Positions 5,678 through 16,967 of a DNA stretch of 33,620 nt are shown here, piece after piece. Numbering within the stretch: the stretch's first letter is position 1; each line of letters starts with the position of its first letter. The DNA lies in IMG/VR virus record IMGVR_UViG_3300042288_001092, positions 1 through 33,620 of that record; one strand, 5' to 3'. The notes beneath the pieces were generated by a model. The model worked only from the letters and a program-made list of their open reading frames with translations, did no database searches and was not told the origin of the DNA. Source of the stretch: a virus. The position numbers and the translations under genes were made by a program.

Positions 5678-7020
5678 GAAAACCACTGAAAAGAGCCGTT
5701 TCTGCTAAGGTAGTTGAATGCGTCGGCTGCTGCATCCACCTGGTCATCATGCTGACCAGTCGGGAAGCTGCAAAGCTCATCGATGAAAGCCCTATTCCAA
5801 TCGCCTCGCTCAAGCTCTACAAGGCCAGCTTCACAGGCTGCCGCAAACGGCATGGCCCGCACCTCTTTTGAGCCTGTTGGGCGGGCGGATACAGTCGCGA
5901 ACCCTGCCAAGTTGATTTTGTCCTGCTCCACTTGATCAACTCCCGCGGCACCGGGATCTTGAGCAAGGTGGACGATTGTCTGAAGCCCGTCTATCTCGGC
6001 TGTCTGTCGCTGGATGGTTCGCCGTTGGGCTGGTGACCACTGACCTCTAACCACGTGGGTGATTCGGTATTTATCACCGATTCGCTGCATTCTGACGCCT
6101 GCGGTGTAGTCACCCGCCCCCGGCGTCGCTGCTGTATCGTAAGCGCGGCAAGCCAGCCCTGAGCTATTGCCCCCGTCACTAATAGGCAGCCAATCGTGAC
6201 GGAAGAAGCCACCAGATCGAGGGCTAGGACGTTGTTGATAGAGGGCTGAGAATGCATAACTACCAATAGCCTTCTTAATTCTGTCAAAGTCTGCGACGTT
6301 GTAACGGTCTGGCCAGAGTGCCGCCCCCGGCTCTCTGCCAAGTGCATCACCTTCTTCGGCAATGGCTGGCAAGCTCACCACGTCCCACCGTTCGCCGCCG
6401 TTATTTGCTTCTTCCAGTAGTTGGCCCGCTAAATCGAGCGAATGCCAGCGGGTCATGATCAGCACGATAGCCGCGCCGGGGTGTAACCGCGTGTAGAGAT
6501 CGTTTTGATACCAGTCCAGCACTCTCGCCCGGTAAGTTGGTGATTCAGCCTCTTGGCGGCTTTTGACGGGGTCATCGATAACCACAAGGTCGGCACCGTA
6601 GCCTGTGACCCCTGAGCCGACCCCGACCGCATACAACCCGCCGCCGTGAACTGACGACCACTGATTCTGCTTATTGCTGTCGTTCGCGAACTGAAAACCG
6701 AACCGACTGACGAGCCGCCTTGTTTGTCGGCTGAATGTACAGGCGAGGCTGTGATTATAAGCCCCGACGATGACCCGCATGGTTTGATTGCGGAGTAGCC
6801 TGTAAGCCGGGTAGTGAATCGTTGATTGTTCGCTTTTGCCGTGCCGTGGTGGCAGGAAAAGCATTAGCCGTGTGATTTCGCCGTTAGTTACTCGGTCAAG
6901 CCGATTTCGGCAGAGTTTAAGGTGATTCGGATGCCACTGATGATTCGGACTGACACGCTCTAAAAACTGCCATAAACCAGCCTTAATCAAGCTGTTCCGG
7001 GGCTGGCTCAGGGTCATCAT
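5674..7020 (-). CDS. terL: Terminase large subunit
   Basis: 448 residues, normal for the family. The ATPase part has Walker A near residues 56-64 (LPPRHGKSE) and Walker B near 144-150 (DLVVIDD). The RNase H-like nuclease part starts near RAYDTAATPG (Asp ~295), with further acidic positions in LAQDPGAAGVDQ and HDDQVDAAADAF near the C-terminus. It cuts concatemeric DNA and drives it into the prohead through the portal. The start overlaps the small-subunit-like gene by 38 bases; ATG at 7020 or 7017 are both possible. The conserved helix just before Walker A supports an N-terminus at about this length. Confidence 0.95.
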   Translation of the reverse strand: MMTLSQPRNSLIKAGLWQFLERVSPNHQWHPNHLKLCRNRLDRVTNGEITRLMLFLPPRHGKSEQSTIHYPAYRLLRNQTMRVIVGAYNHSLACTFSRQTRRLVSRFGFQFANDSNKQNQWSSVHGGGLYAVGVGSGVTGYGADLVVIDDPVKSRQEAESPTYRARVLDWYQNDLYTRLHPGAAIVLIMTRWHSLDLAGQLLEEANNGGERWDVVSLPAIAEEGDALGREPGAALWPDRYNVADFDRIKKAIGSYAFSALYQQRPSPRSGGFFRHDWLPISDGGNSSGLACRAYDTAATPGAGDYTAGVRMQRIGDKYRITHVVRGQWSPAQRRTIQRQTAEIDGLQTIVHLAQDPGAAGVDQVEQDKINLAGFATVSARPTGSKEVRAMPFAAACEAGLVELERGDWNRAFIDELCSFPTGQHDDQVDAAADAFNYLSRNGSFQWFS

Positions 7021-7291
7021 CGTAATTGTTTAACGTGTCGCCTGATTGATCGCTTGCGGCAACCTTGCCGTTCAGTCTGTCGTAGATGGCCTGCCAATAA
7101 CGAAAATCACCACCCAAGGCTTGTTTCAATCCAACTTCAACCAGCTTGTGGAGTAAATCTGGCGAATTAACCAGAACCCTATCAAGGGCCTCATTCATAT
7201 CCGGTCGTTTGGGCCTGCCTTTTGGGTTGCCGCTTTCGCCTGGCTTCCAAGGTGGTCGAAGTCCTGACCTGTCAGGATTAAGGTTTGCCAT
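6983..7291 (-). CDS. DUF5681-type protein, probable small terminase component
   Basis: 102 residues from ATG at 7291. The segment WKPGESGNPKGRPK is the hallmark of DUF5681, a basic N-terminal domain often encoded just upstream of large terminases. The rest is helical, with an acidic C-terminus (YDDDPEPAPEQ). A TTG at 7318 would extend it by nine residues (YRKKHRTE); ATG is preferred, although no clear Shine-Dalgarno is seen at either. Position and family suggest DNA recognition for packaging. This is an inference, since not all DUF5681 proteins are shown to be terminase subunits. Confidence 0.75.
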   Translation of the reverse strand: MANLNPDRSGLRPPWKPGESGNPKGRPKRPDMNEALDRVLVNSPDLLHKLVEVGLKQALGGDFRYWQAIYDRLNGKVAASDQSGDTLNNYDDDPEPAPEQLD

Positions 7292-11630: not shown

Positions 11631-11860
11631 GCTTCCACCCCTTTCGGGTGAATGCTTTTGGCTTCTTTGATCAGATAGATGCGGTCGAAGTCGGCAGGTT
11701 TGATCGTGAAATAAGCGTTGTTGCGGAAAAGCACGTCGATGGCGGCGATGTCAAACGCTTTGCCTTTGGCGTCACGTTTATATTCAATTTTCACAACCGT
11801 GCCGACCATGATTGATTCTTTGGCCCGAATTGTGTCGCCCACCTGATAACGATTGATCAT
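11627..11860 (-). CDS. Hypothetical small beta protein
   Basis: 77 residues (MINRYQVGDTIRAKESIMVG...). The pattern of short strands (VGDTIRAKESIMVGTVVKIEY, then IDVLFRNNAYFTIKP) suggests a small beta-barrel, as in the KOW/SH3-like folds, but no family is certain. Its start overlaps the csrA stop (ATGA), so the two are translated together. Confidence 0.5.
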   Translation of the reverse strand: MINRYQVGDTIRAKESIMVGTVVKIEYKRDAKGKAFDIAAIDVLFRNNAYFTIKPADFDRIYLIKEAKSIHPKGVEA

Positions 11861-12057
11861 GACACGCCATCCTTTTTTGCACTGTTGAGCTTCTTTTCCC
11901 TGATTTCTGGCCGATTGATCTGTACGTTCTTTGAGGCACTGAAGGCCAGTTTGACCTTGTCGCCACGAATCTCGGCGACGATGACTTCGATTGTTTCGTC
12001 ACCCGCATCGATGACAACTGTTTGAAGTTTGCCCCTTGTCAATACCAAGACACCCAT
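11857..12057 (-). CDS. csrA: CsrA/RsmA-family RNA-binding protein, phage-encoded
   Basis: 66 residues from ATG at 12057, with a perfect GGAGG Shine-Dalgarno. The family pattern is clear: LVLTR at residues 4-8, then ETIEVIVAEIRGDKVKLAF and SASKNVQINRPEI at residues 40-52. Arg49 corresponds to the RNA-contacting Arg44 of E. coli CsrA. CsrA proteins are dimers that bind GGA in hairpin loops and leaders and alter translation or mRNA stability. Its own Shine-Dalgarno reads ATGGAGG, which fits an autoregulatory site. The leader holds a hairpin and, further up, a 23-unit GGYNN array. It may act on host or phage mRNAs; neither is shown. Confidence 0.85.
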   Translation of the reverse strand: MGVLVLTRGKLQTVVIDAGDETIEVIVAEIRGDKVKLAFSASKNVQINRPEIREKKLNSAKKDGVS

Positions 12058-12079
12058 CGTTGCAACCTCCATGATGATT

Positions 12080-12098
12080 GACGGCCAGGCTGACCGTC
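12080..12098 (-). promoter_or_regulatory. Hairpin in csrA leader
   Basis: An inverted repeat (GACGG at 12080-12084 and CCGTC at 12094-12098), extendable to eight pairs with one mismatch, lies about a dozen bases before the csrA Shine-Dalgarno. A hairpin next to a GGA-containing ribosome-binding site is the usual setting for CsrA-type control. Its role here is inferred. Confidence 0.4.
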
Positions 12099-12192
12099 CG
12101 TGAGTTCCATGCCTGCCGCCTGAAAGTTCAGCCTGATAACATCTCAGGCATCCTTCCACCGCCCCGGCGTCGGACTGTGACGACCGAGGAAA

Positions 12193-12227
12193 CCACCGCC
12201 AGCCATCATTTCAGACTGGCAGGAGTG
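12193..12227 (-). repeat. Conserved-loop hairpin, copy 1 of 4 (35-bp exact repeat)
   Basis: This 35-bp stretch is identical to 13805-13839. It forms a five-pair stem (12198-12202 with 12216-12220) closing a 13-base loop that reads TCTGAAATGATGG on the minus strand. The same loop pattern (TCTGAAA...GG) recurs in two other hairpins with different stems. It ends the 23-unit pentamer array upstream of csrA. Confidence 0.75.
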
Positions 12228-12339
12228 CCTTGCCTTACCTTACCGCACCGGGCCGCACCCGACCTGACCGTGGCCGGACGCACCATGCCATGCCTATCCT
12301 TACCTCACCGTGCCAGACCACGCCATGACTCGCCAAGCC
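12225..12339 (-). repeat. GGYNN pentamer array (23 units) upstream of csrA
   Basis: On the minus strand the sequence can be cut into 23 consecutive 5-base units, nearly all GGC.. or GGT.. (for example GGCAT, GGTGC, GGTAA, GGCAA). Exceptions are few (GTCAT, GTCCG, GCCAC, GGATA). The phase never slips across 115 bases. It fills most of the 290-base gap 12058-12347 between a hypothetical gene and csrA. No open frame is supported here, and a 5-base period is not a coding signal. Confidence 0.8.
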
Positions 12340-12347
12340 TTGATTTA

Positions 12348-12845
12348 TCATCCACCGGGACGCCTAAAGAAAGCGGGTGGCTTCATTACTGGCGGCGGTG
12401 CAACTCTTTCTGACTGAGTTGGCCGCGTCGCCTTGTTTACATCACGGAGCGACCGTTGCAGAGAATCAAGCGACACACTGATCTTGCGTGACTCAATCTC
12501 ATGCCGCCGCTTGTCAATCTCGCCAAGCTCTGAAACGTCAACACGCTCCACATGCTTTTTGCTTCGGCGAATCTTTTTTACACCTGTGCGGAATCGTTTG
12601 GCTTGAAACTCAACCGATTCAGCGTCTGACAGAATATAAACCGAACCGTTGGCAACTCGCAGGCTCCAATGTTTGCCATTCTTCCAGAGAACTTTCTCGA
12701 GCAGGCCAGCCACTTTCAAGGCGGCAAAATTGATTGAATCTTGATCGGTTTCAATGATTCCAGCAAGTTTCACGACATCGCTTGGCGGTATGCAATCGCC
12801 TTTAGAAAGCCCATCAATAAAATCTTGCTCAAAATAGATTTTCAT
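12348..12845 (-). CDS. Hypothetical protein
   Basis: 165 residues. The N-terminal ~75 residues include a helix-turn-helix-like stretch (IPPSDVVKLAGIIETDQ..., then NFAALKVAGLLEKVLW) and a Trp-rich strand. The C-terminal half is basic and helical (RFRTGVKKIRRSKKH) and ends in a Pro-rich tail (APPPVMKPPAFFRRPGG). Start at 12845 overlaps the upstream stop as ATGA. No family recognised; nucleic-acid binding is possible. Confidence 0.55.
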   Translation of the reverse strand: MKIYFEQDFIDGLSKGDCIPPSDVVKLAGIIETDQDSINFAALKVAGLLEKVLWKNGKHWSLRVANGSVYILSDAESVEFQAKRFRTGVKKIRRSKKHVERVDVSELGEIDKRRHEIESRKISVSLDSLQRSLRDVNKATRPTQSERVAPPPVMKPPAFFRRPGG

Positions 12846-13435
12846 GAAAGCACCTCAAAGCTCGACACTTCAAATAATCCGAAACGCGGACGGTAATCAC
12901 AGAGCCCGATTGACCTGCCTGCAATCTGGCAGATTTGAGCAAATACGCTGGCGTCAAGGTCGTAAAGGTCAGCTTGAAATTCAGCCGCCCAAATGTCAAA
13001 ACGTGGTCTATAGCGAATGACTCGCGATGTTTGAACACGCACACCACGGGCATCAATGTATTTGCCGCCAGTTTTCCAAAAGTCCTCAACTGTTGCTTTG
13101 GGCCCTGCTGGGTGATCGTGAACCAGTAGCGTGTCGTCAGTGACGATAATGCCAGATTGTGCGGTTTTCTTTAGTTTCAGCTTCTTTGCCGCTTCAATGA
13201 AACAACCTTGCAGGCAATCGGCTGTAATAACAGGCCGAAATTCTGAATCATGATAGAAGCCGTTTCGCCAGTCAAGCTCTGCCAGCCGTTCATGGTCTGA
13301 ATCGACCTTTGACCGCTTGGAGCTGATCGCCTTTGATGCTTTTGCCTCCTTACTCAACGGGTTTGCTGCCCGTGCCGAGTGCATCAATAACGGCCTCACC
13401 CCTGAAATCTTGACTCTTACAGATATGTCTGACAT
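12842..13435 (-). CDS. Conserved phage protein of unknown function
   Basis: 197 residues, preceded by an AAGGA Shine-Dalgarno. It begins VRVKISGVRPLLMHS and continues with KAISSKRSKVDSDHE, GFYHDSEFRPVITADCLQGC and a C-terminal IAGRSIGLCDYRPRFGLFEV. I recognise this arrangement from a widespread phage protein family, usually unannotated, found in early operons of actinobacterial and other phages. The strand-rich, Gly-containing layout recalls single-RRM RNA-binding folds, but that is only an impression. It follows the large non-coding pentamer locus. Confidence 0.65.
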   Translation of the reverse strand: MSDISVRVKISGVRPLLMHSARAANPLSKEAKASKAISSKRSKVDSDHERLAELDWRNGFYHDSEFRPVITADCLQGCFIEAAKKLKLKKTAQSGIIVTDDTLLVHDHPAGPKATVEDFWKTGGKYIDARGVRVQTSRVIRYRPRFDIWAAEFQADLYDLDASVFAQICQIAGRSIGLCDYRPRFGLFEVSSFEVLS

Positions 13436-13516
13436 TCACTCAATCCTTATTGTCGGCTTCCCATGCTTAGAGATCGCCGAGTTCTGAAAATGCCCGGCAG
13501 CAACATTTGCCACCGG

Positions 13517-13591
13517 AGCCCTTGCCTAGCCCGACCTTACCCAGCCACACCGGGCCTTGCCCGACCGGAACATGCCCAGCCCAACCGGACA
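13517..13591 (-). repeat. GGYNN pentamer array (15 units)
   Basis: Fifteen in-phase 5-base units on the minus strand, mostly GGC.. or GGT.., with two imperfect ones (GTTCC, TGTCC). It follows the third hairpin of the locus and ends about 80 bases before the start of the next gene, leaving a short leader. Part of the 741-base gene-free stretch 13436-14176. Confidence 0.75.
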
Positions 13592-13593
13592 AT

Positions 13594-13626
13594 CCACCGC
13601 TGACCGTAATTTCAGATCAACGGTGG
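13594..13626 (-). repeat. Conserved-loop hairpin, copy 2 of 4
   Basis: Stem of six pairs (13594-13599 with 13621-13626), one mismatch, then three more pairs, closing a 13-base loop that reads TCTGAAATTACGG on the minus strand. The stem sequence is unrelated to the other copies, while the loop is nearly the same. It separates two pentamer arrays. Confidence 0.7.
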
Positions 13627-13700
13627 CACCTTGCCTCGCCGAACCTTGCCATACACTGCCATACACTGCTATGCCATACACTGCCTGACCTCGCCTAACC
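13626..13700 (-). repeat. GGYNN pentamer array (15 units)
   Basis: Fifteen in-phase 5-base units between two hairpins on the minus strand. Several units deviate (TGTAT three times, AGCAG once), and a 10-base subunit (GGCAG TGTAT) repeats, showing local duplication by whole units. The phase stays constant. Confidence 0.75.
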
Positions 13701-13708
13701 GGGGTAAT

Positions 13709-13742
13709 CCGCTTGCAGCCAATCGTTTCAGACTGCAAGCGG
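13709..13742 (-). repeat. Conserved-loop hairpin, copy 3 of 4 (10-bp perfect stem)
   Basis: A perfect ten-pair stem (13709-13718 with 13733-13742) with a 14-base loop reading TCTGAAACGATTGG on the minus strand. This is the strongest of the four hairpins. Pentamer arrays abut it on both sides. The loop, not the stem, is what it shares with the others. Confidence 0.8.
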
Positions 13743-13801
13743 CACCATGCCGAGCCTAACCAGACCGTGCCACGCCGGGCCATGACCTGCCCCGCCTTGG
13801 C
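13742..13801 (-). repeat. GGYNN pentamer array (12 units)
   Basis: Twelve in-phase units on the minus strand: ten start GGC or GGT, the others are GTCAT and GCCAA. It begins right after hairpin copy 4 and ends at hairpin copy 3. Confidence 0.8.
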
Positions 13802-13804
13802 AAT

Positions 13805-13839
13805 CCACCGCCAGCCATCATTTCAGACTGGCAGGAGTG
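13805..13839 (-). repeat. Conserved-loop hairpin, copy 4 of 4 (35-bp exact repeat)
   Basis: Identical over 35 bases to 12193-12227. Stem 13810-13814 with 13828-13832, loop TCTGAAATGATGG on the minus strand. It opens the array locus in transcription order. The exact match over 35 bases, with diverged flanks, suggests recent duplication or conservation of this unit. Confidence 0.75.
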
Positions 13840-13940
13840 AAAACCCGCCCAAGCAACGCACCTGGGCGAGTCGCAGAAGTTTCCCGCCGTTTTGGACCAG
13901 CGGCCAGCCAGAACGAAAATCGATTAACTTTCTGACTGAT

Positions 13941-13987
13941 TGTCACGGGCAGGAGTCGAACCTGCCGGGCCTTCCGCTTGCGGCGGA
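13941..13987 (-). other. tRNA 3'-end-like fragment
   Basis: On the minus strand a canonical T arm (stem GCAGG/CCTGC, loop TTCGACT at 13949-13965) is followed by a seven-base acceptor-like strand (CCGTGAC) and A at 13941. It is preceded by a long variable-arm-like hairpin (TCCGC/GCGGA, 13973-13987). A partner acceptor strand GCCACGG lies 89 bases away at 14023-14029 and pairs at six of seven positions. However, the sequence between does not form a proper anticodon arm and lacks GG in the D loop. It is either a degenerate class II tRNA or the 3' remnant of one, perhaps an old attachment site. Confidence 0.4.
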
Positions 13988-16650: not shown

Positions 16651-16931
16651 GGATAGGGTCAAAAAATATCATCCTATCCAGATAATTTTATCCTATCCAT
16701 TGTAAACCACTACAGCATAATACTTTGATAGGATGGATAGGATGGATAGGATGTTTTTCGGGTCTTACACACATACACATGCGTGACGCGTGCGTGTGCA
16801 TACGCGTGGGGTTTTTTATCCTATCCATGGTATCCATCCTATACATAAATTTATAAGTTATTAATTAATAGTAACTTACAGATGGATAGGATAAAAAAAT
16901 ATCCTATCCAAATGGATAGGATGGATAGGAT
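16651..16931. repeat. 9-bp iteron array, probable replication origin
   Basis: Nine exact copies of GGATAGGAT or its complement: 16671, 16690, 16735, 16744, 16818, 16884, 16901, 16914 and 16923 (start positions), plus partial copies, in both orientations. Two pairs are in direct tandem (16735/16744 and 16914/16923). Between them are AT-rich stretches and a central purine/pyrimidine-alternating segment with ACGCGT palindromes (16768-16809). The array fills the 371-base gap 16597-16967, next to the PrimPol-helicase gene. Iterons beside a replicase gene usually mark an origin; that this is one here is inferred. Confidence 0.75.
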
Positions 16932-16967
16932 GATATATACGGGAATCTAAATTATGATGTTAAATTC

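Follow-up and report, generated by a model that had tools for sequence, protein, structure and literature searches.

Hairpins with drifting stems and a near-constant loop between the guide arrays of a phage VIPR locus

The closest described systems are those named VIPR, which phages carry and which bind DNA under the guidance of RNA, as set out in a preprint of 2026 (PMC13142463). According to its main text, each guide RNA (vrRNA) is about 100 nt in length and consists of 9-16 YNNGG repeats followed by an invariable structured 3' tail, and the NN pairs specify, with a one-base skip, the double-stranded DNA that is read; the system acts against rival phages. The systems of phage SUSP1 and of a Pseudomonas fulva prophage are assigned there to type II, a single sentence mentions arrays interspersed with hammerhead ribozymes, and VIPR as a whole has been proposed to be related to CRISPR in an ancestor-like way. 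The main text is silent on how the guide RNAs are cut from their precursors, and the word "hairpin" does not occur in it; the supplement may draw separators of the kind considered below. A search of the literature on VIPR and on phage pentanucleotide repeats found this preprint as the sole paper on VIPR.

The VIPR locus and its guide arrays

The window considered in this study is the whole stretch of 33,620 bases, a virus record from IMG/VR. It carries head, portal, terminase, primase, integrase and RusA genes and is therefore taken to come from a tailed phage. The locus occupies its minus strand, where, between 13839 and 12189, runs of GGYNN pentamers alternate with four hairpins in the order hairpin 1, array A, hairpin 2, array B, hairpin 3, array C, a GGG-hairpin, vipr, a vap-like gene, array D, hairpin 4.

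By sequence match and modelled fold, the gene between the array runs (12842-13435, minus strand) encodes a Vipr protein, a Cas7/Csm3-like RAMP protein of 197 aa. Compared by sequence with solved structures, the product has one match, the Vipr of SUSP1 (E 1.7e-25), and it also matches PHROG 4652, a family of unknown function. Its predicted structure (mean pLDDT 95.7) has CRISPR Csm3/Cas7 as the nearest solved folds, with Z up to 11.8. The vap-like gene (12348-12845, minus strand) overlaps the end of vipr by 4 bases. An iterated profile ties it to the vipr-adjacent gene in about 30 loci, while pairwise BLAST against L135 and L136 gives nothing and no solved relative was found.

GGY/NN arrays beside vipr, a feature of VIPR, are present. 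Array A (13743-13801) has 11 GGYNN-like units, array B (13627-13705) 15, array C (13522-13590) about 13, and array D (12226-12339) 23 in register, exceeding the published range and perhaps representing two fused guides; all four lie on the minus strand. An array-pattern scan of viral contigs matched at least 120 stretches, and among the 120 matches listed, 90 encode a Vipr relative, on the array strand in 88 of the 90. Given the preprint and this association, the arrays and the protein are to be regarded as already known, unlike the hairpins.

The initial annotation had proposed that the hairpins mark units of the arrays, and hairpins indeed stand at the array borders of the window, of the related phages L010 and L131 and of the distant phage L153. 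Together an array and its hairpin measure about 95-116 nt, as calculated from the coordinates, a size comparable to the published vrRNAs of about 100 nt. In arrays A and B the first guide unit stands in pentamer register after the stem (GG-ATT-RYC-NN-GGY); array C has one base less. Only array C is followed by a separate tail-like element, GGG and a weak hairpin (13492-13521, minus strand; fold z-score -1.3) that resembles array tails elsewhere in VIPR, such as those of Pseudomonas phage LESphi2 and of LittleE; arrays A, B and D run directly into hairpins. Array D is preceded only by a weak, different hairpin (z-score -0.5) that lacks the motif. In L010 an extra hairpin stands in the middle of array D, which suggests that two guides have fused in array D of the window and that hairpin 4 is a remnant.

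Hairpins are 88-100% identical among the window, L010 and L131, which have identical Vipr proteins, whereas array B shows an identity of 57-62% among the same three and array C of L010 one of 57-58%. By this comparison of sequences, guides B and C have been exchanged between fixed hairpins. No vrRNA target was found in the loci compared here, and of two exact-pattern scans of viral contigs for targets, one gave 5 matches that do not extend and the other 0. The Vipr protein is also 100% identical in L129, a near-copy of the window, and much of the DNA surrounding vipr differs by about 6-18% among these phages.

Several other elements adjoin the locus. On the minus strand, a strong hairpin followed by TTTT (13842-13872; z-score -4.0) ends directly before hairpin 1, and L131 and L010 have about 370 extra bases at its position. 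Directly upstream of the VIPR locus (13941-13975, minus strand) is a T-arm-like GGCAGGTTCGACTCCTGCC followed by CGTGAC, with no recognised tRNA gene; it might be the remains of a tRNA, an attachment site or some tRNA-like element. Directly downstream is a gene for a CsrA-like regulator (11857-12159, minus strand; PF02599, E 1.9e-11). Further away, GATAGGATG/ATCCTATCC recurs in direct and inverted orientation at 16727-16960, between the HNH and primase genes; the copies are possibly replication-origin repeats.

Structure and conservation of the hairpins

All four hairpins described in the initial annotation, with varying stems and a near-constant loop, are present on the minus strand, and a covariance model picks out these four and no others in the window, scoring them at 46-55 bits against 14.4 bits for the next match. 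Hairpin 1 (13805-13837), which precedes array A, has 11 of 12 pairs and the loop UGAAAUGAU; hairpin 2 (13709-13742) and hairpin 3 (13594-13626) each have 12 of 12, with the loops UGAAACGAUU and UGAAAUUAC; and hairpin 4 (12193-12225), which follows array D and has no array behind it, has 11 of 12 and again the loop UGAAAUGAU. The count starts at the U-C/G-G pairs closing the loop and proceeds outward, and it replaces the stems of 5, 9, 10 and 5 pairs given at first. Likewise, the loop originally described as 13-14 bases, TCTGAAA...GG, is conserved as claimed but is shorter than was thought, for its TC and GG pair with each other and leave 9-10 bases beginning UGAAA. The near-identity of copies 1 and 4 holds, over 38 bases with one mismatch (35 identical bases by direct reading). 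The linker after the hairpin is GG-ATTG or GG-GTTG.

To gauge chance, the window was compared with 20 first-order Markov shuffles of itself. Twelve-pair hairpins of this shape (G-U allowed) are common on their own, at 69 window positions against a mean of 35 in the shuffles. Hairpins that also have the UC-U..AA..GG loop number 4 in the window, against 1 in total across all 20 shuffles. The RNA folding z-scores of hairpins 1-4 are -3.2, -4.4, -4.1 and -1.8, the last of which makes hairpin 4 weak when taken alone.

For the covariation analysis, nineteen hairpins were available from the window, L010, L131 and L153, and 15 distinct ones were aligned (alignment A1), near-copies being left out (hairpins 2 and 3 of L010, hairpins 2 and 4 of L131). 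Of the 180 cells of this alignment, 98.9% are paired, and double changes occur at 7 of the 12 pairs. The covariation score is 0.672, as compared to 0.328 in shuffles, none of which reached it in 500, and 0.173 or less in slid controls, and the covariation thus exceeds what chance gives. The cells comprise 141 Watson-Crick pairs, 37 G-U pairs, no A-C pair and 2 others, a bias that points to RNA of the array strand. When five of six held-out hairpins were added (alignment A3; the sixth, with a 6-base loop, was left out), the resulting 20 hairpins showed double changes at 10 of the 12 pairs. Alignment A7 joins 17 of those 20 to 10 of 19 listed SUSP1-type hairpins and shows double changes at all 12, the ten additions having all been chosen by pairing; one L136 hairpin before vipr, with no array and a deviant loop, was left out of it. 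Loop base 1 is U and loop base 5 is A in 27 of the 27 rows of A7, and across the collected hairpins the closing pair is C-G or U-G and the loop 8-10 bases.

Since the hairpins had first been noticed as hairpins, the pairing test was repeated without a pairing filter, taking all places close to an array that match the loop pattern and have GG after them. All 20 places selected by loop and position pair at 9 or more of the 10 outer pairs, as compared to 0.13% of random positions. The hairpins are structured RNA and not chance. The earlier claim of selection on RNA structure is accordingly borne out, both by covariation and by this unfiltered pairing. No homologue was seen that keeps the stem and has lost the loop; the loop of the SUSP1-type hairpins follows the same plan, UC-UU..A..-GG, and is not identical.

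Distribution among VIPR loci

Scans for the loop matched 12, 24 and 6 viral stretches and 11 genome stretches. The true homologues among them are L010, L129, L131 and L153; of the other matches, those read individually are due to chance, and the remainder, from the 24-stretch viral scan and the genome scan, were judged by script and by the model only. In L153 the model finds six copies and more in a second array cluster, where six can be read, for a total of at least 12. Its Vipr is 22% identical to that of the window. Within L153:1160-2000 each leader hairpin is joined to what follows by a linker, GGGTTG or one like it; mostly a second short hairpin, often GNRA-capped, comes next, and then the array.

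In the SUSP1-type loci of Ounavirinae (L136 and L187-L190), a hairpin of the form stem-UC-UU..A..-GG-stem stands directly before 20 of 21 arrays, and the one exception, an L190 array, shows that stem with the loop lengthened. Here the loop-only rule lends no support, with 7 of 31 places showing 9 or more of the 10 outer pairs, because it takes the wrong GG and low-complexity matches. Since the rows were picked by pairing and the rule failed, the membership of these hairpins rests on position and plan. Judged by sequence, one hairpin plan is common to three VIPR groups, the phage group of the window, L153 and the SUSP1-type phages, a recurrence that is new here.

The three groups do not form one lineage of Vipr. 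In a tree of 96 Vipr sequences (L129, L131 and sequences shorter than 140 aa left out), the window falls within a branch of 25 rows (support 99/97) that includes LESphi2 and the SUSP1-type L136 (compare the type II assignment of SUSP1 and the P. fulva prophage), and L153 lies in another branch. The motif is absent from the close VIPR relatives L105, L003, L045 and L015 and from L018 and L089, kin of L153, and is therefore not required by VIPR in general. The nearest relatives of the window and of L153 use other separators, and a wider model (R2), run on 62 chosen sources without L153, gave clear matches only in the window and L136, with L092 at E 0.017. The hairpin thus occurs in more than one Vipr branch and yet not throughout VIPR. 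A link to planctomycetes, whose genomes the initial annotation proposed to search, found no support: among 392 Planctomycetota genomes, 4 had one weak match each, none beside a GGYNN array.

Separators of quite another kind occur in the VIPR arrays of LittleE (a Mycobacterium phage), MakoManhole (a Gordonia phage) and viral contigs. These are tRNA-like minihelices, made up of an acceptor-like stem and a T-arm with GGTTCGANTCC, at L138:4636-5005, L137:2884-3240, L034 near 6900-7200 (minus strand) and L005 near 3804. ARAGORN and Rfam do not call them. Their presence between arrays suggests processing of vrRNA by RNase P.

Proposed role of the hairpins and comparison with known systems

The reading I favour, and consider moderately probable, is that the hairpins serve as leaders or separators within the array of guide RNAs, setting the point at which each vrRNA is cut or capped. 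The minus strand would be transcribed as one unit in which hairpins and guide arrays alternate, starting with a hairpin. The part of the hairpin that is recognised would be the constant closing pairs and loop, the stem being free to drift as long as pairing is kept. A nuclease (Vipr, its partner Vap or a host RNase) would then cut at or beside the hairpin, freeing single vrRNAs of about 100 nt to be loaded on Vipr. In the phage of the window, the same hairpin may also remain as the end structure of the preceding vrRNA. Counting against the leader reading are hairpin 4, which introduces no array, array D, which has no motif before it, the close VIPR relatives and the kin of L153 that do without the motif, and the SUSP1-type hairpins, which rest on rows chosen by pairing.

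The conservation of the loop fits recognition by a protein or an RNA. Its reader may be Vap, some host nuclease or Vipr itself; self-processing of the precursor is known from type III-E gRAMP proteins. The patchy spread of the hairpin speaks for a factor outside Vipr. A broader proposal, to which I would give somewhat less than an even chance, is that a repeat-like RNA element defined by its loop and common to at least three VIPR groups, not to one branch of Vipr, constitutes a maturation module that can be swapped: one factor would read it in all these groups, and in other phages tRNA-like minihelices, ribozymes or other separators would take its place.

The chief rival is that the hairpin forms a stable end of the mature vrRNA, or a handle on it for proteins, to which Vipr or Vap would bind when a filament is started or ended. 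This would accord with the structured 3' tail described in the preprint's main text (PMC13142463) and with the way arrays A, B and D of the window run straight into a hairpin with no other tail. However, no array precedes hairpin 1, and in L153 and the SUSP1-type loci the array ends in a separate tail-like piece, after which come the hairpin and then the next array. This order, together with the register of the first guide unit and the exchange of guides, favours a leader or separator, and I regard the end handle as unlikely, if the most serious of the alternatives.

It is quite improbable that the hairpin mimics a tRNA acceptor/T-arm minihelix cut by host RNase P or RNase Z. The 12-pair helix and the U1 and A5 of the loop recall a T-loop, a resemblance to be taken as a lead only, and the arrays of L138, L137 and L034 are separated by T-arm minihelices. 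A tRNA-like RNase P substrate is nevertheless contradicted by the closing pair (C-G or U-G, not G-C), by the loop (8-10 bases, not 7) and by the lack of a following CCA.

Two further readings deserve still less credence. A self-cleaving ribozyme would have a precedent in the ribozyme-separated arrays mentioned in the preprint (PMC13142463), but the hairpins lack the hammerhead core CUGANGA...GAAA, match no Rfam ribozyme even at relaxed thresholds, and, as single stems with loops of 8-10 bases, are small for one. More broadly, Rfam gave nothing at gathering thresholds and nothing meaningful at relaxed thresholds in the window, none at E up to 1 in L153 and L136, and one unrelated sRNA only in 16 array loci; a hammerhead-core pattern was met near arrays in 3 loci, none convincing. 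Nor is there much to recommend attC-like DNA recombination sites exchanging guide cassettes: arrays B and C are swapped between fixed hairpins and copies 1 and 4 are direct repeats flanking the whole locus, but the 37 G-U cells without an A-C point to RNA of one strand, and ordinary homologous recombination also explains the exchange.

Other identities were dropped outright. CsrA binding was set aside because GGA at the foot of the stem is absent in hairpin 4, in hairpin 1 of L010 and in most L153 hairpins. Simple terminators were rejected because no T run follows the four hairpins and a terminator scan did not report any of the four.

With a conserved leader hairpin that has its counterpart in the characterised SUSP1-type phages, the question of how vrRNAs are cut gains a sequence that can be mutated, and the distribution of the hairpin suggests that the separators of the guides and the Vipr protein change independently.

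To the extent that the systems of SUSP1 and the P. fulva prophage are described in the main text of the preprint (PMC13142463), the locus resembles them in its Vipr, its adjoining GGY/NN arrays, its vap-like gene and its location in a phage; it differs in that hairpins with drifting stems separate the arrays and in the 23 units of array D, rather than 9-16. With the arrays interspersed with hammerheads (PMC13142463) it shares a structured RNA separator between guide arrays. The hairpins of the window, unlike those separators, have neither a hammerhead core nor an Rfam match. In the SUSP1-type loci L136 and L187-L190, hairpins of the same plan precede the arrays. CRISPR with Cas6-type hairpins offers a parallel in the order hairpin-guide-hairpin, in guides swapped between constant elements and in a protein of RAMP fold. 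CRISPR repeats, however, are constant in sequence and their spacers contiguous; in the window the stems vary around a constant loop and the guides between the hairpins are arrays of pentamers read with gaps, which is not the plan of a CRISPR array.
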